Below, piece after piece: positions 20,187 to 30,297 of a stretch of 64,000 bases of DNA; positions within the stretch are counted from its first letter, which is position 1, and each line of letters starts with the position of its first letter. Source of the stretch: Lutibacter citreus (GTDB taxonomy: Bacteria > Bacteroidota > Bacteroidia > Flavobacteriales > Flavobacteriaceae). A program made the translations under genes and the position numbers. The stretch is taken from NCBI RefSeq assembly GCF_003260195.1, contig NZ_QEIH01000008.1, positions 186,001-250,000 of the forward strand, in the 5' to 3' direction. Below the pieces are notes generated by a model. That model had not been told where the DNA came from, ran no database searches, and was given only the letters and a program-made list of their open reading frames with translations.

Positions 20187-20580
20187 TCAATATTTTTAGC
20201 AACCAATGTAAATACCGCGAAAATTTCATTTATTAAAACAATTTAATTATAACTTTAAGGGCTTTTAAATAACTTGTATTTTTATATGTTTTTTTTAATT
20301 ATTGTTATTGAAGATGTTTAAGATATAAATAATTAAACTGCTTTAGTTCAATGGAATATTTTGAAAAATATTTTTGAAAACAAAAAAATGCAATTACATA
20401 GTACTTTTATTTACTAATTATAGCCTTGTAAATTATGTTAATAAAATGGATATTTGATTTTATTTATGTTAAAAAACATATTGAAACATGATAAAAATCA
20501 TAGTATTATTATGTAAAAAACATTAAATTGCAGGAATTATTGATTTTAAAGTTAAAGTTTGAACCCCACCTTATACTATA
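20187..20580. other. 394-base intergenic region upstream of the YfiR-TonB operon
   Basis: This AT-rich gap contains an all-A/T hairpin (20355-20372, possible weak terminator for the permease), a Crp/Fnr-like palindrome (20488-20501) and a weak -7-like TAAATTG (20524-20530). I see no open reading frame or RNA gene in it. Confidence 0.6.
20488..20501. promoter_or_regulatory. Candidate Crp/Fnr-family operator
   Basis: The perfect palindrome ATGAT-AAAA-ATCAT contains the TGAT-N4-ATCA core recognised by many Crp/Fnr-type regulators. Its centre lies about 42 bases before a transcription start that would be predicted from the weak -7-like TAAATTG at 20524-20530, the classical position for class II activation. 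The spacing argument is inference; the palindrome itself is seen directly. Confidence 0.45.
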
Positions 20581-21120
20581 ATGATTGACTTGAAATCACC
20601 CTTTTCTATTACTTTTTTTACTAAGGGATTAGTTTTTATATGTCTTTTTTTCTTTTGGGGTAATTCAGTTATATCACAAAATACACTTGTACCTGAAAAT
20701 ATTCAGGCAGCGCTCTTATCTAAAGTTTTAAAATTTAACCCAGATCTACCACAAAATACAACAATAAAAATGTTAGTTGTATATGATAATAATTCTGAAA
20801 TAAATAAGGATAAATTTATTAAGGGATTAGGTAATTCTATGTCTGTAAAGGCAATTAATCCAATGGAACTGAAACAAAATATTTCTGGCTATAATGTTGT
20901 TTATTTTATGTCAGGAATATATGATTATGCTGGGGTATGTAAAGCTAATAAGGTGCTATCAGTAACTGGTAGTGCTCAATATGTTGAGCAAGGTGAAATT
21001 TCACTAGGTTTTGGAATACAAAATAATAAGCCAAAGATATTGGTTAATCTAACTTCTTTAGATAAAGAGGGGCAGTCTTTCTCCTCCGATATTTTAAGAA
21101 TAGCCAAAATATTTAATTAA
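20581..21120 (+). CDS. YfiR family periplasmic protein (DUF4154)
   Basis: A 179-residue exported protein (signal segment about residues 14-32). The mature part follows the YfiR/DUF4154 plan: AALLSKVLKF, a beta strand IKMLVVYD, the middle YNVVYFMSG, then LSVTGSAQYVEQGEISLGF and the C-terminal ILVNLTSLDKEGQSFSSDILRIAKIF. In Pseudomonas YfiR binds and represses the CHASE8-containing cyclase YfiN and depends on disulfide bonds. Here only one mature cysteine (Cys120) is present, so those bonds cannot form. It is the first gene of the operon, 6 bases before the first receptor. Confidence 0.85.
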   Translation: MIDLKSPFSITFFTKGLVFICLFFFWGNSVISQNTLVPENIQAALLSKVLKFNPDLPQNTTIKMLVVYDNNSEINKDKFIKGLGNSMSVKAINPMELKQNISGYNVVYFMSGIYDYAGVCKANKVLSVTGSAQYVEQGEISLGFGIQNNKPKILVNLTSLDKEGQSFSSDILRIAKIFN

Positions 21121-21126
21121 CCAGCT

Positions 21127-23454
21127 ATGAATCTAAAAAGAAAAATATTTGTTTTTATTTTGGTTATTAGTGCCGGGTTGTTTACTGAAGTTTCAAGTCA
21201 GGAAAATAAAGTTTATAATGATATGACTTTAGATGAGATTTTAAATATTGATGTTGTAGTAACAGCATCTAAGCATCCTGAAGACCTTTTTGAAACACCT
21301 TTGTCTACAACTATTATAAGCAAAGAAGAAATTGAAAAATCTGGTGTTACCAGTATTCCTGAAGCTCTTAGGTTTGTTCAAGGTGTAATTGTTAGAGAGA
21401 TAACCCCAGGAAATTATGATATTCATATTAGGGGGTATGATGACATTACAAAAAATGCATATGTAACGCTACCTTATAATACTACAACGCTTGTTATGAT
21501 TGATAACCGAGTTGTATACAGTTATTTTAGTGGTGGAACATTTTGGGAAACGTTTCCAATTGATATTATTGATGTTGAAAGAATTGAAGTTGTTAGAGGG
21601 CCTGCATCAGCATTGTACGGGCCAAATGCTGTTACTGGTGTAATTAACATTATAACATCTCATGCTAATAAAAAAGGTAGGAATGTTTCATTAACTAGTA
21701 TAGTTGGGACTAACTACGCTAAAAATGCTAGTGTAAATATTGGATATAACTGGGATGATAAAACGAAGCTTTCATTTTCAGGTAATTTTACAGAACGCTA
21801 TCGTTTTAATGATGAGTATTATGATTTTAATAAAAAAGGATATACAGATATTGAAGATCTAACCATGTTTGTTTGTCCTGGTAAAGATGAAAACACCAAT
21901 GAGGATTGGAAATATAAAGAATACCAAGAAGCACTTGGCGCTTATTATGATGTAGATCTTAGTTTAAGAAAATTAGGAGGAAATATCTTTCTTTTACATA
22001 ATTTTTCTGAAAACTCAAATATAGATGTTGCTGTGGGAGCTCAAAAATCTCAAAGTCAAAAAACAGGATTTTTAAACTTTTCAACTCCTTTGTCTCAAAG
22101 TGAATCAGAAAGCTATTATTTAAATACAAGAATAAAGCACAAAAATTTGAGTGGTCAATTTAATTTGAATTCAGGACATGATAATAATAATTACAAATTT
22201 AATTCCTATAAATTCACCAATATTGAAGGTAACCTTGAATATTTTAAGCAGTTTAAATCTTTTAGTATTAGACCAGGAATAAGTTTTAAACATTTATCCT
22301 ATAATAGTTCTCTAACCTATAATGAACCGTTAGATTTTAACAAACTTAATTATAAATTTAAGGATGAGCCTAGAGAAACTTCTTCTTATTCAGCATTTAT
22401 ATTAACAGAATGGAATCCTATTTCAAACCTTAGAATGATAGGAGCTATTCGCCATGATAAGTTTGAGTTTAATAAAAATTGTTTTACTAATTTTGAATTA
22501 GCAACAACCTATCGTATTAATAAAAATAACTTAATTAGAGCGGTATATTCAAAAGCTAACAAATCGCCTTTTTTCTTAGATTCTTACATGAATGCTAAAA
22601 TGTCTGTAGCATACATTCAGCCAGCAACTGATACACAAAGTTCTTTAAATGTTCCTGTTAACTTAAATATAAAAGGTCAAGCGGATTTGAAATACCCAAC
22701 TATTATAAATCAAGAAATAGGTTGGAGAACTAAAATAAATTCAAATCTAAAATTAGATGTTGAATTGTTTTATTCAAAAGTGGATAATTTTGTGAATACA
22801 AACATTTACCGAAATTTTAAAGTAGAGCAACAACTAAACGCATTAGGAGAACCAGAATCTATAATTTCTTTAAGTGCTGATGGGGATGCAGTTTTTGAAA
22901 ATTACGATTTAAAAGCCGATCAATTTGGTGTTGGATTTACCTTAAATTATGAGTTTTCTAATACCTTTAGAGCTAATGTATTTGGAACCTATCAGATTAC
23001 TAATAATTCAGGGGAAAAAGATATTAGTATAGAAACTACCAACATACATTTTGATGATATTACCCCAGATAACATTCTTGTTTCAGAGGTAAATACAATA
23101 ATGAACCCCGTACAATGGAGTAGTGAAGTAACACCTTCATTTTTTGGAGGTTTCTTACTAAATTATAAGCCAAATAAAAAGTGGAATTTTTGTACAGATG
23201 CAAATGTATATTCTAATCAGGTTTTTACAAACTATAATTATTATAAATTGAATGACATAACTAGTATTGATGAGGCCTTAATAGAAAACCATATTAAAGC
23301 AAACATAATTTTAAATGCAAAAGCATTTCTTCAATTAAATAAAAATACATCCTCAAGTTTAACAATAAAAAATATATTAGGAAATCATCTTGAATATGGT
23401 TTTGCAGATCAGATTGGAAGACAATTACTGATTGGTATAAAATGGGAATTATAA
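21127..23454 (+). CDS. TonB-dependent outer-membrane receptor 1 of tandem pair
   Basis: A 775-residue receptor with a signal peptide (to about residue 24). It has a Plug domain (about 45-165) that starts LDEILNIDVVVTASK and contains the VVRGPASALYGPNAVTGVINI block, and a C-terminal 22-strand barrel ending LLIGIKWEL. There is no carboxypeptidase-like N-terminal domain and no SusD partner, so this is not a polysaccharide-utilisation receptor. The N-terminal motif is that of receptors often found beside YfiR-like proteins and kinases. Ligand unknown. It lies in the operon between yfiR-like and its paralogue. Confidence 0.9.
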   Translation: MNLKRKIFVFILVISAGLFTEVSSQENKVYNDMTLDEILNIDVVVTASKHPEDLFETPLSTTIISKEEIEKSGVTSIPEALRFVQGVIVREITPGNYDIHIRGYDDITKNAYVTLPYNTTTLVMIDNRVVYSYFSGGTFWETFPIDIIDVERIEVVRGPASALYGPNAVTGVINIITSHANKKGRNVSLTSIVGTNYAKNASVNIGYNWDDKTKLSFSGNFTERYRFNDEYYDFNKKGYTDIEDLTMFVCPGKDENTNEDWKYKEYQEALGAYYDVDLSLRKLGGNIFLLHNFSENSNIDVAVGAQKSQSQKTGFLNFSTPLSQSESESYYLNTRIKHKNLSGQFNLNSGHDNNNYKFNSYKFTNIEGNLEYFKQFKSFSIRPGISFKHLSYNSSLTYNEPLDFNKLNYKFKDEPRETSSYSAFILTEWNPISNLRMIGAIRHDKFEFNKNCFTNFELATTYRINKNNLIRAVYSKANKSPFFLDSYMNAKMSVAYIQPATDTQSSLNVPVNLNIKGQADLKYPTIINQEIGWRTKINSNLKLDVELFYSKVDNFVNTNIYRNFKVEQQLNALGEPESIISLSADGDAVFENYDLKADQFGVGFTLNYEFSNTFRANVFGTYQITNNSGEKDISIETTNIHFDDITPDNILVSEVNTIMNPVQWSSEVTPSFFGGFLLNYKPNKKWNFCTDANVYSNQVFTNYNYYKLNDITSIDEALIENHIKANIILNAKAFLQLNKNTSSSLTIKNILGNHLEYGFADQIGRQLLIGIKWEL

Positions 23455-23503
23455 TAAATATTAAAAATAATTATAATTTAAATGAAAAAGTTTTAAATAT
23501 TTA

Positions 23504-25825
23504 ATGAAAAACAGACTAAACATATTAATTTTAAACCTATTGCTTCTTTTGCTAAGTAGTCACTTATTAGCTCAGGATAAAAATGTTTATGAAAATATGT
23601 CTTTGGATGAGATTTTAAATATTGATGTTGTGGTAACAGCATCTAAACAACCAGAAGATCTTTTTGAAACCCCTTTATCGGTTACAATTATTAGTAGAGA
23701 AGATATAGATAACGCGGGTGCTACAAGTATTATGGAAGCATTACGCTTGTCTCAGGGGTTAATTGTTAGAGAAATCACTCCAGGGAATTTTGATGTGCAA
23801 ATTCGTGGTTTTGATGATATTACCAAAAATGCTTACGTTTCATTACCATACAATACTACAATTCTTGTAATGATTGATAATAGAATTGTTTACGACTATT
23901 ATTCAGGTGGTACACTTTGGGAAACATTACCAATAGATATTAATGATATTGAACGTATTGAAATTGTAAGAGGTCCAGCTTCAGCATTATATGGACCCAA
24001 TGCAGCAACAGGAGTTATTAATATAATAACCTCACATTCAAAAGAAAAAGGATTAAATATTTTTACTTCTGGTAAAATTGGAAATGCTAACACTAAAATT
24101 GCAAATGCAAATATTGGTTATAACTGGGATAATAAAACCAGTTTAACATTAACTGGTAATTTTACAGTACAAGATAGGTTTGATAAAATGTACTATAATT
24201 GGTGGGATCAGAAATACACAAATTTAGAAGATATGCACATGATGTTGGAAATTGAAAAGGATCCAAATACTCATGAAGTATGGAAATATGAAGATTTTAG
24301 TGAAGCCGTATCTAGTAAATATAATATTGATCAAAGTTTACAAAAAAGAGCGGCTAATATTTTCTTTACGCACGAATTTAATGAAAATGCAAACTTTAAC
24401 CTTTCATTTGGAGGTCAAAAATCAGAAAGCCAGAAAATTGGGTTTTCAAATTTTGCGACACCACTTTCACAATACAATTCTGAAAGCTTTTATATTGATA
24501 ATAAATTTAAAATAAATAATTTTTATGGGCAATGGAATGTCTCTAAAGGTGAAGTTTTAGGAAATTCCTTTAATACTTTTAAATTTAATAATTTAGATGC
24601 TAGTTTGGAATATTTATTCAGATATAAAAACTTAAGTTTAAGACCAGGTGTGAGTTATAAAAGAAGTTGTTATAATAGCCCAGTTACATATGATGAGGTA
24701 TTTGATCTTTCAAAACTAAATTATGAATTTAAAGATGAGCCTAGAAAGTTTACTAGTTATTCGGGGTCTTTACTTACTGATTGGAAGTTATCATCTAAAT
24801 TAAGAATGATTGGAGGATTACGTATTGATAAATTTAATATTAATAAAAACTATTTTGTAAATTTTGAACTGGCAAGCACTTATCGTTTAAATAAAAATAA
24901 TTTGTTACGAGCTGTAATTTCTCGAGCAAACCGTTCTCCTTCTTTTTATGATACATTTATAAATACAAAGATGAGTTTTTATTATGGACTGGCAACAGAA
25001 ACAAATACGGAGCCAGTTTATATACCTGTTGAACAGTATATTAAAGCTAAAAGAGATCAAAAATACCCAACTAATTCAAGTTTAGAATTAAGCTGGAGAA
25101 GTAAATTAAGCCCTAAAGTAAATTTAGATATTGAAGCATTTTTTCAAAAATCAGACAATCTTCTGGCATCTGTTGAATACAGAAAAATTAATTCCAAAGT
25201 TCAATTAAATGCAGATAACGAAGTTGAGAACGCAATTTCAGGATCTGGATTTGCTAGTATGAATTTTCAAAATTATGATTATGGATCCTCTCAGTTTGGG
25301 GTAAGTTTTATGTTGAATTATAGTCCTAATTCAAAATTAGATTTTAAACTTTATGGTACACTGCAAAAAACCTTTTTAAATGATAATACGGAGTTTGAAT
25401 TTGATATAATTGATACTAAATTCTCACTTGATCCAGAAACAAATATTTTAAACACTACTATATTTTCTAATGTTAATATGACTTTATTAAGTGATGAACT
25501 TACACCAACATTTTATGGTGGATTTTTGTTGAATTATAAACCAAATAATAAGTTTAACATTAATTTAAATAGTTATACTTATTCAAAACAAGTTTTTGAA
25601 GCTATGCCTATTGATAATGTAATTTCTGATTATACAGGTGTTTATCATAAAAAAACAGCAGCAATTAAAGCTAACTCAATTATTAACGCAAAAATTGGTT
25701 ATAATCTTAATAACAAAACATCAATAAATATATCCATGAAAAACATGTTAGGCAAACAAAGACAATTTGGTTTTGCTGATAATATTGGTACTACTTTTTT
25801 AATTGGTTGCCAATGGAAATATTAA
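23504..25825 (+). CDS. TonB-dependent outer-membrane receptor 2 of tandem pair
   Basis: A 773-residue paralogue of the preceding receptor, with a signal peptide ending LLAQ at about residue 24. The Plug domains are nearly identical (SLDEILNIDVVVTASK, SVTIISREDI, VRGPASALYGPNAATGV), while the barrel loops, such as the region after RFDKMYYNWW, differ clearly. That pattern points to tandem duplication followed by divergence of ligand-contact loops. The barrel ends TTFLIGCQWKY. It lies 49 bases after receptor 1 and 39 bases before the lipoprotein gene. Confidence 0.9.
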   Translation: MKNRLNILILNLLLLLLSSHLLAQDKNVYENMSLDEILNIDVVVTASKQPEDLFETPLSVTIISREDIDNAGATSIMEALRLSQGLIVREITPGNFDVQIRGFDDITKNAYVSLPYNTTILVMIDNRIVYDYYSGGTLWETLPIDINDIERIEIVRGPASALYGPNAATGVINIITSHSKEKGLNIFTSGKIGNANTKIANANIGYNWDNKTSLTLTGNFTVQDRFDKMYYNWWDQKYTNLEDMHMMLEIEKDPNTHEVWKYEDFSEAVSSKYNIDQSLQKRAANIFFTHEFNENANFNLSFGGQKSESQKIGFSNFATPLSQYNSESFYIDNKFKINNFYGQWNVSKGEVLGNSFNTFKFNNLDASLEYLFRYKNLSLRPGVSYKRSCYNSPVTYDEVFDLSKLNYEFKDEPRKFTSYSGSLLTDWKLSSKLRMIGGLRIDKFNINKNYFVNFELASTYRLNKNNLLRAVISRANRSPSFYDTFINTKMSFYYGLATETNTEPVYIPVEQYIKAKRDQKYPTNSSLELSWRSKLSPKVNLDIEAFFQKSDNLLASVEYRKINSKVQLNADNEVENAISGSGFASMNFQNYDYGSSQFGVSFMLNYSPNSKLDFKLYGTLQKTFLNDNTEFEFDIIDTKFSLDPETNILNTTIFSNVNMTLLSDELTPTFYGGFLLNYKPNNKFNINLNSYTYSKQVFEAMPIDNVISDYTGVYHKKTAAIKANSIINAKIGYNLNNKTSINISMKNMLGKQRQFGFADNIGTTFLIGCQWKY

Positions 25826-25864
25826 ATATAAAAAAACTAAAATAATATTAAACCCCAATTAATT

Positions 25865-26338
25865 ATGAAAAATAAATACTTTTTAATTACCCTTTTTTGT
25901 ATCACATTAAGTTTAGTTTCTTGTAGTAATGATGATTCAACAGAACCTCAATCAAAAAATGAAATGCTTACTGATAAGTCATGGATGGTTCAAAGTAAAA
26001 TTGTTACACCTTCTATTAGTTTGGGAGGAATGGAAATTTCAGATATTACAATGCTGGATGAAGAAGAGGTGAAAAGCTATATTTATAAATTTAGCAGTGA
26101 TGGAACTTTAGTTGTAAAGAATTCTTCTGAACAAATTATTCTTGAAACCTCTTGGGGTTTTAATTCAGATAAAACTCAATTAACCTTAAGTGATCCTTTA
26201 ATTTTTAATTACCCAGTTGTTGGAGAAATTGGTTTATCAACAATTACTCTTAATTCATTAACAACAACAAAAATGGTTGGTACTATTCCTTCAATTTATG
26301 ATGGTGTAAATTATGTTGTTACTATAACATTTGTTTAA
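25865..26338 (+). CDS. Small lipoprotein, lipocalin-like
   Basis: A 157-residue lipoprotein with lipobox LSLVSC (Cys20) followed by the acidic, Ser/Asn-rich stretch SNDDSTEP, which resembles a surface-export tether of Bacteroidetes lipoproteins. The mature part reads as a series of strands (KSWMVQSKIV, YIYKFSSDGTLVVKN, SWGFNSDKTQLTLSD, TMVGTI-like end), as in the lipocalin-like/DUF5004-type families. No ligand can be inferred. Its place between the receptors and the kinase suggests an accessory role in sensing or capture. Confidence 0.75.
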   Translation: MKNKYFLITLFCITLSLVSCSNDDSTEPQSKNEMLTDKSWMVQSKIVTPSISLGGMEISDITMLDEEEVKSYIYKFSSDGTLVVKNSSEQIILETSWGFNSDKTQLTLSDPLIFNYPVVGEIGLSTITLNSLTTTKMVGTIPSIYDGVNYVVTITFV

Positions 26339-26382
26339 AATAATTTGTAAAACAGAACTAAATTTAAATAAATATTTCACTT

Positions 26383-28131
26383 ATGATTTTTAAAAACTTA
26401 TCTATTAAAGTTAAAATGATATTGATAATTCAATTGGTGTCATTACTTTCTCTTTTGATAGGTTTTACTTATGTAATATTTAGCAATATTGCAAATTATA
26501 AGGAGGATATGAAAAATAACACAATAATTAATGCAACTCTTATTGGAGATTATTGTGCAGTACCTCTTTTATTTAATTCTTCAGAAAATGCAGTTGAAAC
26601 ATTGGATAAATTAGAAATTATTCCTTCTGTTAAAGTTGGAATTGTTTATAATGATAAAAATGAAATTTTTGCACAATTTTATAAAAATGGAGAAAAAACT
26701 CCAATTGAAAATTCAGAAATCAATACACCTTGGAATAAATTTGAAAATGATTATTTAAGTGTTTCTCATCCTATTTATTATGAAAATAAGTTAGCCGGTA
26801 AAATTTATTTAAGAGTTTCCACGGAGCAACTGTCATTAAAAATTAAGGATTATTTATTAACAATGTTTTTGCTTCTTATTTCTTTACTTATAGTTAATTA
26901 CATTCTTGCTCTTTGGCTACAAAGAGTACTTTCAGAGCCTATTTTAAATTTAACAAAGGCAACAAAAGAAATTTCTAAAGAAGGAAATTATCAGGTAAGA
27001 GTTCAAAAGAAAGGAAATGATGAAATAGGTATTTTAGTTGATGAATACAATAAAATGTTAGCGCAAATATATGAGAGAGAAGAGGCCTTAAAATTGAGAA
27101 CAAATGAGCTAACACAAACCTTAGGAGATTTAAAACAAACGCAAGAGAAGCTTATTAATTCTGAAAAATTAGCAGCGCTTGGTCAATTAATTGCAGGGGT
27201 AGCACACGAAATAAACACACCTCTTGGAGCTATTCGCTCATCAATAGGTAATATTAAAAATACCTTAATATTTGTGTTAAAAGAATATCCTATATTTATT
27301 AACGAATTACCTGAAAAATTAAAAAAAGAATTTTTCATTTTAATGGATAATTCTCTTAAAAGTAAGCATTCATTAACCTCAAAAGAAGAGCGAGTTTTTA
27401 AAAAAAATATTACTAAAATACTTGAAAAACATAATATTGAAAATGCATATTCATTTGCCGATACTTTTGTTGATATGTTGTTGGTTGATAATGTTGAAAA
27501 ATATTTAGATCTTTTAAAAAATAAAGATTCGGAGAAAATTATTGATATTGCATATAAAATTACCAGTCTGCAAAGAAGTACTGAAAATATTGAATTTGCT
27601 GCTGATAGAGCTTCAAAAGTTGTATTTGCACTTAAAAATTCATCAAGAATTAATAATTATGAAGAGTTGATATTAGCAGATATTATTGAAGGAGTTGAAA
27701 ATGTGTTAACGTTATATAATAATCAGATTAAACAAGGTATTGAAGTCTCTAAAAAATATGAAGAAATACCGAAAATATATTGTTATTTTGATGAACTAAA
27801 TCAGGTATGGACAAATATACTTCATAATGCTATATATGCTATGGATCTTAAAGGTAAATTAGATATTAAAGCATATACAGAAAAGGAGTATGTAGTAGTT
27901 TCAATTACAGATAGCGGAAAAGGTATTCCTCCAGAAGAAATTGATAAAATATTTGATCCCTTTTTTAGTACAAAACCAACTGGAGAAGGAACGGGTATAG
28001 GATTAGATATTTCCAAACGGATTATTGAAAAACATCAAGGAAAAATTAAAGTAGAGAGTAGGCCAGGAAAAACAACTTTTAGTATTTACTTGCCAATAAA
28101 TAAAAAGTTAGAAAATCAAATAAAACCATAA
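26383..28131 (+). CDS. Sensor histidine kinase with CHASE8-type periplasmic domain
   Basis: A 582-residue membrane kinase. Order: helix 1 (13-35), a periplasmic CHASE8-like domain (40-155; DYCAVPLLFNSSENAVETL, VKVGIVYNDKNEIFAQF, HPIYYENKLAGKIYLRV), helix 2 (158-180), HAMP (180-232), a coiled coil, the phosphoacceptor His275 in VAHEINTP, and an ATPase domain with N-box Asn478/Asn482, DSGKGIP and GTGIGL. Between His275 and the ATPase domain there is a helical insertion of about 100 residues, much longer than a normal dimerisation hairpin. CHASE8 is the domain through which YfiR acts on YfiN, which fits the YfiR-like first gene. Confidence 0.88.
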   Translation: MIFKNLSIKVKMILIIQLVSLLSLLIGFTYVIFSNIANYKEDMKNNTIINATLIGDYCAVPLLFNSSENAVETLDKLEIIPSVKVGIVYNDKNEIFAQFYKNGEKTPIENSEINTPWNKFENDYLSVSHPIYYENKLAGKIYLRVSTEQLSLKIKDYLLTMFLLLISLLIVNYILALWLQRVLSEPILNLTKATKEISKEGNYQVRVQKKGNDEIGILVDEYNKMLAQIYEREEALKLRTNELTQTLGDLKQTQEKLINSEKLAALGQLIAGVAHEINTPLGAIRSSIGNIKNTLIFVLKEYPIFINELPEKLKKEFFILMDNSLKSKHSLTSKEERVFKKNITKILEKHNIENAYSFADTFVDMLLVDNVEKYLDLLKNKDSEKIIDIAYKITSLQRSTENIEFAADRASKVVFALKNSSRINNYEELILADIIEGVENVLTLYNNQIKQGIEVSKKYEEIPKIYCYFDELNQVWTNILHNAIYAMDLKGKLDIKAYTEKEYVVVSITDSGKGIPPEEIDKIFDPFFSTKPTGEGTGIGLDISKRIIEKHQGKIKVESRPGKTTFSIYLPINKKLENQIKP

Positions 28132-28140
28132 TAGCGTAGC

Positions 28141-28536
28141 ATGGAAAAAACTGTAATTTTATGTGTTGATGATGAAAAAATAATATTAAATAGTATTAAA
28201 GCTCAGTTAAAAGAAAATTATGGTAATTCATTTTTGTATGAAACTGCAGAAAGTGCTCTAGAGGCTTTTGATATTATTGATGAAATAATGATGGATCAAC
28301 CTCAGAAACTTATAATAATTAGCGATTGGCTTATGCCGGTAATTAAAGGAGATGAATTTCTAATAAAAGTTCATGGTAAATATCCAAATTCGTTAAAAAT
28401 AATGTTAACAGGTCAGGCAGATTTGGAATCAATTAAAAAAGTAGAAACTGAAGGGAATTTATATAAATGTATTCAAAAACCTTGGTTAGTATCTGAACTG
28501 ATTTCTTGTATTGATTCTGGAATGCTATTAATTTAA
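28141..28536 (+). CDS. Stand-alone response regulator receiver protein
   Basis: A 131-residue receiver domain with no output domain. Acidic pocket residues Asp10-Asp11 (CVDDEK), phosphoacceptor Asp62 (ISDWLMP), Thr90 (LTGQAD) and Lys113 (QKPW) are all present. The TGQA and KPW forms are those of the RpfG/HupR-like receiver group. It is closely similar to the N-terminal receiver of the next gene and probably arose by duplication. It lies 9 bases after the kinase gene and could carry phosphoryl groups between the two kinases. Confidence 0.9.
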   Translation: MEKTVILCVDDEKIILNSIKAQLKENYGNSFLYETAESALEAFDIIDEIMMDQPQKLIIISDWLMPVIKGDEFLIKVHGKYPNSLKIMLTGQADLESIKKVETEGNLYKCIQKPWLVSELISCIDSGMLLI

Positions 28537-28545
28537 ACTATAAAT

Positions 28546-30297
28546 ATGAAAAAGGGGGTAATATTTTGTGTTGATGATGAAAAAATTGTTTTAAATAGTT
28601 TAAAAACCGAGCTGAAAAATGCTATTGGAAATGATTATATTATTGAAACGGCTGAATCAGGAATTGAAGCTTTAGAAGCTATAGAAAGTTTGATAGAATT
28701 AAATTACGAGATTCTAGTAGTAATAGCAGATTACGCCATGCCTATAATGAAAGGAGATGAGTTTTTAACCGAGCTTCATGAAAAATCACCAAGTACTTTA
28801 AACATATTATTAACCGGGCAAGCTACTGTTGAAGGAATTGCGAACTCAATAAATTACGCTGATTTATATAGATATATTTCTAAACCTTGGCATACTAACG
28901 ACCTTATTTTAACAGTTAATCAAGCTGTAAAAAGTTACCATCAAGAAAATCAAATTAAAATTCAAAATAAAGAATTAACTGAGTTAAGTTCTTCTTTAGA
29001 AAATAAAGTTCAATTACGTACTCAGGAACTAAAAAATAAAAATAGCTTACTTTTAGAAAAGCAGAAAGAGATTACTATTCAGAATGAAGAATTAGAAAAT
29101 TATAGAAATCACCTTGAAAACCTTGTTGAAGAAAGAACTTTGGAGCTAACAATGGAAAAGGATAAAGCTCAAGAAAGTGAGAGGTTAAAATCTGCCTTTC
29201 TAGCAAATATGTCACATGAAATTAGGACTCCTATGAGTGGGATATTGGGCTTTACCGAACTTCTGAAAGAACCATTACTTTTAAAAGAAAAGCAGCAGAA
29301 ATATCTTGAAATTATTAAAAAAAGTGGAGAACGTTTACTAAACATAATAAATGAAATAATTGATATTTCTAAAATAGAAGCTGGGATAGTTAAATCACTA
29401 GATTTAGAAATAAATGTTAATAATAAGATAGACTATTTATATACTTTTTTTAAAACAGAAACAGAAAAAAAGAAACTAGAATTTTTTTGCAAGAAAACAT
29501 TATCTAATGAACAAGCTGTTATTAAAACTGATGGCGGAAAATTAGATGCTATTCTTATTAATCTTATTAAGAATACTATTAAATATACCGATTATGGGTG
29601 TATAGAATTTGGGTACAATTTAAATAAGGAAAGTGATTCTAATCTGCTAGAATTTTATGTAAGAGATACGGGTATTGGAATACCAAAGGATCGTCAGCAA
29701 GCTATTTTTGATTTATTTGTGCAAGCAGATATTGAAGATAAAAATGCTATGCAAGGAGCTGGCTTAGGCCTCTCAATTACAAAGGCATATGTTGAAATGA
29801 TGAACGGTAAAATATGGGTGGAAAGTGAAGAAGGAAAAGGATCTATTTTCTATTTTACAATTCCGTATTGTCCCGTAAATTTAATAGTTAAAAAAGAGGT
29901 TTTAATTAGTAATTCTAGTTTAAATTTAAATAATAAACTAAAAATATTAATTGTTGAAGATGATGAAAGTGCAAAGCAGTATTTATCAATAATATTAGAA
30001 TCTTTTAGTAAAAATACTCTTTTGGCGGGCAATGGAAAAGAAGCAGTAGAAATCTGTAAAAATAATTTAGATATAGATTTAGTTTTAATGGATATTAAAA
30101 TGCCGGTTATGAATGGTTTTGATGCTACAAGAGAAATTAGACTGTTTAATAAGGATGTAATAATTATTGCACAATCTGCATATGCATTATTTGGAGATAA
30201 GGAAAAAACTCTTGAATCTGGATGTAATGATTATATTTCTAAGCCTATTAGTAAAAAACAATTAACAACTATAATATTAAAATACTTTAGTTTATAA
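28546..30297 (+). CDS. Hybrid histidine kinase with receiver domains at both ends
   Basis: A cytosolic 583-residue protein: N-terminal receiver (1-120; Asp62, TGQA, KPW), a long coiled coil (125-212), a HisKA domain with His224 (NMSHEIRTP), an ATPase domain (N339/N343, DTGIGIP, GAGLGL) and a C-terminal receiver (465-580; Asp471-472, Asp516 in LMDIKMP, Lys566). It lacks membrane helices, Hpt and any DNA-binding or nucleotide-cyclase output. It probably receives signal from the upstream kinase through its first receiver, with a final output encoded elsewhere. It is the last gene of the operon. Confidence 0.9.
   Translation: MKKGVIFCVDDEKIVLNSLKTELKNAIGNDYIIETAESGIEALEAIESLIELNYEILVVIADYAMPIMKGDEFLTELHEKSPSTLNILLTGQATVEGIANSINYADLYRYISKPWHTNDLILTVNQAVKSYHQENQIKIQNKELTELSSSLENKVQLRTQELKNKNSLLLEKQKEITIQNEELENYRNHLENLVEERTLELTMEKDKAQESERLKSAFLANMSHEIRTPMSGILGFTELLKEPLLLKEKQQKYLEIIKKSGERLLNIINEIIDISKIEAGIVKSLDLEINVNNKIDYLYTFFKTETEKKKLEFFCKKTLSNEQAVIKTDGGKLDAILINLIKNTIKYTDYGCIEFGYNLNKESDSNLLEFYVRDTGIGIPKDRQQAIFDLFVQADIEDKNAMQGAGLGLSITKAYVEMMNGKIWVESEEGKGSIFYFTIPYCPVNLIVKKEVLISNSSLNLNNKLKILIVEDDESAKQYLSIILESFSKNTLLAGNGKEAVEICKNNLDIDLVLMDIKMPVMNGFDATREIRLFNKDVIIIAQSAYALFGDKEKTLESGCNDYISKPISKKQLTTIILKYFSL

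Follow-up and report, generated by a model that had tools for sequence, protein, structure and literature searches.

A putative trans-envelope signalling cassette of YfiR-like protein, TonB receptors and CHASE8 kinase in Lutibacter citreus

In the YfiBNR system of Pseudomonas aeruginosa and in YfiR-DgcN-YfiB of Escherichia coli, a DUF4154 protein is paired with a CHASE8-HAMP membrane protein. The same pairing occurs in a 64,000-nucleotide stretch of the Lutibacter citreus genome (contig NZ_QEIH01000008.1, positions 186,001 to 250,000; hereafter the window), within a seven-gene operon on the + strand (20581..30297 of the window). In contrast to both described systems, the output in the window is a kinase rather than GGDEF and TonB receptors are present, while an OmpA-like YfiB and the cysteine pairs of YfiR are missing. 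We lean towards reading this operon as a self-contained trans-envelope signalling cassette, in which a signal would pass from the receptors through the YfiR-like protein to the CHASE8 kinase and on to receivers and a second kinase. Its likely output is phosphotransfer, not cyclic-di-GMP (c-di-GMP), because the unit is conserved, CHASE8 sits on a kinase and the genome contains no GGDEF or EAL match.

On these three grounds the central claim of a sequence-only reading of this DNA, that YfiR is wired to a kinase instead of to c-di-GMP, holds up, but not as a new one. The text of Malone et al. (2012; PMC3375315) already reports YfiN homologues with histidine kinases replacing GGDEF, and these resemble the window in that a YfiR gene accompanies a histidine kinase with a YfiN-type input. 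The claim is also preceded by three NCBIfam families that describe the same three parts as the window: NF053590 (TOL_0244 TonB receptor), NF053591 (TOL_0243 YfiR-like) and NF053592 (HK_near_YfiR_like). The YfiR-to-kinase idea is already known; the link to receptors and the mixed origin described below are less charted. TonB occurs nowhere in the main text of Malone et al. (PMC3375315), unlike in the window with its receptors, and among the papers listed by full-text searches, with most subscription journals outside their coverage, none deals with a link between YfiR/DUF4154, TonB receptors and kinases. At a locus of the same class (L066; our survey loci and genomes carry L and G numbers), a TonB receptor, a YfiR and a CHASE8 kinase stand in a row and pass NF053590 (752 against a cut-off of 645), NF053591 (143 against 125) and NF053592 (219 against 194). 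The window falls below all three cut-offs (receptors 153 and 146 against 645, YfiR 17.8 against 125, kinase 164.8 against 194 bits). It also differs from the trio in layout, since YfiR comes first, two receptors and a lipoprotein lie between YfiR and the kinase, and a lone receiver and a second kinase are added. Judged by sequence, the window holds a divergent cassette of the YfiR/TonB-receptor/CHASE8-kinase kind.

The seven open reading frames (ORFs) are separated by 6, 49, 39, 44, 9 and 9 bases. They encode a YfiR-like periplasmic protein (DUF4154; 20581..21120, 179 residues), two TonB-dependent receptors (21127..23454, 775 residues, and 23504..25825, 773 residues), a small lipoprotein (25865..26338, 157 residues), a CHASE8-HAMP sensor histidine kinase (26383..28131, 582 residues), a lone receiver (28141..28536, 131 residues, Pfam Response_reg) and a REC-coil-HisKA-HATPase-REC hybrid kinase (28546..30297, 583 residues; REC-HisKA-HATPase-REC in Pfam). 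The sequence-only reading had placed and named all seven correctly: an ORF check bore out its coordinates and strand, and Pfam its gene identities except for the lipoprotein, which matches no family above cut-off.

When genome contigs were searched with the window kinase and its orthologue in genome G454, 30 loci were obtained, four of which showed 74-76% identity across nearly the entire kinase. An uncultured Lutibacter has 7/7 genes in the same order; Ulvibacter litoralis (L128), Algibacter pectinivorans and A. amylolyticus have 6/7 in order, with a single receptor. The last kinase of the Ulvibacter and the two Algibacter cassettes measures 465-468 residues; that of Ulvibacter lacks the C-terminal receiver, which is present in the Lutibacter one. 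The genes form a conserved unit, kept together in four related loci, so that a lack of joint conservation, which would have refuted the sequence-only reading, does not apply. The surroundings are not conserved. Comparison of the relatives' flanking ORFs with window ORFs between 12 and 40 kb gave only two weak receiver matches, in the Algibacter loci, and on reading, flanks were common only to these two loci. A close YfiR was found in 2/299 genomes of the family Flavobacteriaceae (the window's own and G454); a weak match in G198 was rejected as a helicase, and two congeners of the window's genome gave no YfiR match. In one congener (G649), two of the flanking genes have their orthologues (87% and 77% identity) on separate contigs, so no empty site is readable there. 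From the sporadic YfiR and the non-shared flanks it follows that the cassette is sporadic, and horizontal transfer is a plausible account of this distribution.

The window's genome (5.1 Mb, completeness 99.98) contains a single DUF4154 match. The earlier remark that GGDEF and EAL are missing nearby extends to the whole genome, which gave 0 matches to each (HD-GYP and PilZ were not searched genome-wide), and an output through c-di-GMP was rejected on this ground. We then placed the cassette in a survey of 395 genomes of the phylum Bacteroidota. Matches of at least 100 bits to NF053592, which models CHASE8-HAMP kinases near YfiR, occur in 23/395 genomes, the window's own included; matches below about 60 bits, many of which cover the HAMP part alone, are not counted. 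DUF4154 gave 59 matches in 39/395 genomes. CHASE8 lies within 6 kb of 29 of these 59 and GGDEF within 20 kb of none, although GGDEF was found somewhere in 31 of 41 genomes checked (not in the window's genome or G454). Among the 29 CHASE8 partners, 24 have a kinase domain and three are truncated where their contig stops (L077, L079, L109). One further partner joins CHASE8 to a chemotaxis signalling domain (L119:7336-9228), and another ends in what reads as a SpoIIE-like phosphatase (L099:15176-16708).

At the level of genes, 57 DUF4154 ORFs were recovered outside the window. A TonB receptor on the same strand within three genes accompanies 37 of them, a kinase within four genes or fused accompanies 35, and 26 have both. 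Background ORFs more than six genes away at the same loci include 0/141 TonB receptors and 5/141 kinases. These survey counts are lower bounds, as the YfiR of L065 was called on the wrong strand, that of L110 was not called and some loci lie at contig ends; no receptor was found for 20/57. Gene fusions point in two directions. In five proteins (L094-L098), DUF4154 forms the N-terminal domain of a HisKA-HATPase protein lacking a CHASE8 match, and in L094 and L098 the fusion gene follows a receptor gene and precedes receiver and kinase-receiver genes. In L107 (9326-10630, G133), CarboxypepD_reg, TonB_C (43.1 bits, cut-off 24.6) and DUF4154 are combined in one 434-residue protein adjoining a receptor; within its family, DUF4154 was found in 1/9 genomes only, that of L107 itself. 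The kinase fusions tie YfiR to kinases and the L107 fusion ties YfiR to receptors, possibly as a physical link from YfiR to the TonB box of the receptor.

The YfiR-like protein of the window matches DUF4154 (YfiR/HmsC-like) with 32.2 bits (cut-off 24.9) over positions 2-143 of the 143 in the profile, and 5/5 members of the cassette family match at E values up to 0.01. Its AlphaFold model has a predicted local distance difference test score (pLDDT) of only 67.9. With this model, the six top PDB matches in Foldseek are chains of 4zhu, 5eb1, 4yna and 4xjy (best E 3.4e-6, TM 0.39-0.49 by query), and the next is the Rhodothermus marinus binding protein 6k1y; the YfiR profile gave no match among PDB sequences at E up to 1. 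All four are YfiR structures, 4zhu under the title 'bacterial repressor protein'. Short binding-protein genes of the 6k1y kind are described in the text of PMC10805632 as adjoining a chemotaxis-receptor gene. Conservation is concentrated at the C-terminus, with 34 of the last 46 residues invariant across the five cassettes (44 of the preceding 100). Control by disulphides was rejected: the P. aeruginosa protein (PaYfiR) has two cysteine pairs, 71-110 and 145-152, according to the text of PMC4655355, and the window protein has cysteines only at 21, in the signal-peptide region, and at 120. In the alignment, the window family has no cysteine at any of the four positions that are Cys in E. coli YfiR.

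CHASE8 was detected at residues 40-143 of the sensor kinase with 30.1 bits (cut-off 27), so that both Pfam checks suggested by the sequence-only reading came out above threshold. HAMP (35.8 bits) and HATPase_c (97.6 bits) follow downstream, and HisKA scores slightly below its cut-off (25.1 against 26.9). H275 in the H-box, N482 and the G-boxes are kept in the alignment with the G454 orthologue, and about 100 additional residues can be read between H-box and HATPase. The residues of a phosphorelay are thus present on all sides (H-box histidine, HATPase boxes, receiver Asp/Thr/Lys). The lone receiver and the N-terminal receiver of the hybrid kinase are 45% identical, and both keep D10, D11, D62, T90 and K113 (hybrid numbering) in alignments with the G454 orthologues. 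Outside the cassettes, the window receivers match those of L139, L142, L146 and L092 with 57-69 bits, in contrast to less than 32 bits for the CheY-like receivers of L078, L081, L084 and L086. The former are located in or near REC-kinases placed after other kinases, so the two-kinase block recurs: these Bacteroidota pairs share with the window both the receiver type and the order kinase, then REC-kinase. In the two partner kinases checked (L139 and L092) the sensor part is 7TMR-DISM. L092 (1409-10157) comes near the window's order with YfiR, receptor, receptor, kinase and REC-kinase, but has this 7TMR-DISM kinase.

The last gene appears composite. Between the window and Ulvibacter (G454, L124:10754-12157), the receiver is identical at 109/130 positions (84%) and the coil at 64/87 (74%), whereas the kinase core reaches only 81/222 (36%); because receiver and coil are so much more alike than the core, the latter looks as if it had been exchanged. 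A search of the window's genome for HPt gave one match (L158, G000:C22:43409), on another contig; it is a candidate relay partner, though it may serve a different system.

The two receptors share 51% identity. Receptor 1 has a Plug domain and lacks STN, and Pfam finds a Plug domain in receptor 2. In the receptor tree, in which seven cassette rows fill less than half of the columns, receptor 1 of the window and of Lutibacter forms one group with the receptors of Ulvibacter and Algibacter, which have a single copy; the sister of this group is receptor 2 of the window and of Lutibacter. Given this sister position, the duplication looks older than these lineages, with the second copy lost in the others. 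Outside the cassette, the receptors are most closely related to the pair at L111; the kinase of that locus gave no CHASE8 match at E 0.001.

YfiR and CHASE8 differ in the loci that they resemble. The window family branches in the YfiR tree with L102, L106, L108, L109, L112 and L119 (support 100/99); in the CHASE8-HAMP tree, these six form their own clade (100/99) without the window family. Constraint tests that excluded E. coli, L072 and L073 rejected a grouping of the window YfiR with L081/L084/L086 (p 1e-15) and one of the window CHASE8 with the six (p 0.011). A grouping of the window CHASE8 with L081/L084/L086 was not rejected (p 0.13), nor was forcing the six type-B YfiR (the same six loci) alone as a clade (p 0.18). 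The cassette is probably a mosaic, in which YfiR with the receptors, the CHASE8 domain and the receivers each resemble a different set of loci; we put it no higher because the groups were named after the trees had been seen. On this reading, the best one for the cassette, its parts are ones found separately in other Bacteroidota.

The observed basis of the signalling model is gene content, conservation of the unit, fold assignments and a genome free of GGDEF and EAL matches. The two TonB receptors would import a ligand, and the periplasmic YfiR-like protein, with its single-domain binding-protein fold, would shift its state with ligand or receptor occupancy. Its conserved C-terminal face would then press on the CHASE8 domain and alter autophosphorylation of the kinase. 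Phosphate would pass both to the lone receiver and to its paralogue at the N-terminus of the second kinase; this paralogue, once phosphorylated, would set the activity of the second kinase, whose C-terminal receiver may feed an HPt or regulator encoded elsewhere. From homology we infer the steps from YfiR to CHASE8, from the kinase to the receivers and from the second kinase to HPt. The binding of YfiR to CHASE8, the sign of its effect, the direction of signalling, the ligand and the order of phosphotransfer between the two kinases are likewise supplied by the model.

Several results weigh against this chain. According to the text of Malone et al. (2012; PMC3375315), YfiR is proposed to bind the AAVVF motif of YfiN through C-terminal V160, F162 and L183, hydrophobic residues, on the basis of genetics and homology models. 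We aligned 32 YfiR/CHASE8 pairs (E. coli, the window, the four named relatives and 26 survey loci); L099, L100 and L110 were omitted, L076 was added (a kinase with an NF053592 match and no CHASE8 call), and L065 contributed only the parts matched by the hidden Markov models. The phenylalanine of AAVVF is F in 32/32 partners, the window motif being VPLLF. However, in a control set of CHASE8 domains from the same genomes that are not located near DUF4154, F is kept in 14/15. It is therefore a trait of the CHASE8 family and no evidence of YfiR binding, and we rejected it as a sign of such binding. On the YfiR side, with published numbers mapped through E. coli, the F162 position is occupied by F (18 of the 32), I (12) or L (2); the window has Ile there and Pro in place of V160. 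The discordant places of the window YfiR and CHASE8 in their two trees weaken the case for co-inheritance of the partners. Moreover, no kinase was found near 22/57 DUF4154 ORFs, 16/45 CHASE8 matches lie more than 6 kb from a listed DUF4154 (one of them, in G454, inside a cassette), and some YfiR/TonB-receptor loci have 7TMR-DISM or other kinases without CHASE8.

Some of these results would suit YfiR acting mainly as a periplasmic, single-domain substrate-binding accessory of the TonB receptors, with the kinase sensing the ligand through its own CHASE8, ungated by YfiR. The contact phenylalanine is not specific to YfiR-linked CHASE8, the window YfiR groups with loci of differing CHASE8, and DUF4154 adjoins a TonB receptor (37/57 ORFs) more often than CHASE8 (29/59 matches). 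The L107 protein stands next to a receptor with no kinase found, and the closest folds of PaYfiR are small-molecule binders, and it binds tryptophan and vitamin B6 weakly, according to the text of PMC4887326. The five DUF4154-kinase fusions speak against an accessory role, as do four f14 loci with YfiR and a CHASE8 kinase and no receptor within three genes, and we regard this account as unlikely, if the most serious of the alternatives. A redox or envelope-stress switch like YfiBNR would need the lipoprotein to act as YfiB and sequester YfiR, as YfiB does in P. aeruginosa (text of PMC4655355). The lipoprotein does belong to the operon and to all five cassettes, its four orthologues being 27-49% identical to that of the window. 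Yet no Pfam family passes its cut-off and no OmpA-like domain was found by Pfam, and a YfiB role by homology was rejected for this lack. Its model is of low confidence (pLDDT 62.7, predicted TM score 0.55) and mostly beta, with a DUF4822 protein and many lipocalins as top matches, none at E 0.001 or better, so that ligand binding by the lipoprotein is a guess. Among 877 ORFs at the survey loci, phmmer found it once, in Ulvibacter. Together with the non-cysteine residues at the four E. coli YfiR positions, this makes such a switch improbable.

That Bacteroidota commonly have TonB receptors and kinases favours an ordinary locus for nutrient uptake, transcribed together with a two-component system and comparable to a polysaccharide locus with its hybrid regulator, in which the resemblance to YfiR would have no signalling meaning. 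However, Pfam detected neither SusD nor a glycoside hydrolase nor a DNA-binding output in the seven proteins, and the links of YfiR to receptors and to kinases far exceed the same-locus background (0 and 5 of 141); we consider an ordinary uptake locus very improbable. The trans-envelope cassette remains our preferred reading. In FecA-FecR-FecI signalling, the occupancy of a TonB receptor is signalled inward, as proposed here for the cassette. In contrast to that system, none of the seven proteins contains an STN domain or belongs to a FecR-like or sigma-factor family in Pfam.

More tentatively, and with doubt prevailing, YfiR domains of Bacteroidota might be general periplasmic readers that couple TonB receptors directly to kinases, the window cassette being a working recombinant whose receptor/YfiR half and kinase half differ in origin. 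If YfiR does read receptor state, it would offer outer-membrane transporters another route inward besides FecA/FecR/sigma, the set of Bacteroidota receptors adjoining a YfiR ORF could be assigned a part in signalling that is open to testing, and YfiR, familiar from studies of c-di-GMP and biofilms, would have to be seen as an input adaptor of general use. For such a test the flavobacterial cassette offers a clean setting, because it is small, occurs in cultured type strains and is free of GGDEF in both the window's genome and G454.

Upstream of the operon lies an intergenic stretch of 394 bases on the + strand (20187..20580), presumably the promoter region. Rfam gave 0 matches at the gathering threshold in the window, this stretch included, so that a known riboswitch ahead of the operon was rejected; the window also contains no tRNA. 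Elsewhere in the phylum, DUF4154 genes of family f8 (L068, L069 and L071, L069 having two) share a context in which no receptor or kinase was found. On reading, their neighbours are a peptidase-like gene on one side and a periplasmic-binding-like gene on the other, perhaps another use of the domain. Eight of the fifteen CHASE8 domains away from DUF4154 (L170-L184) are found in three genomes, G275, G283 and G341. At L067 (6628-8409), a DUF4154 gene stands two genes from a HAMP-SpoIIE protein.

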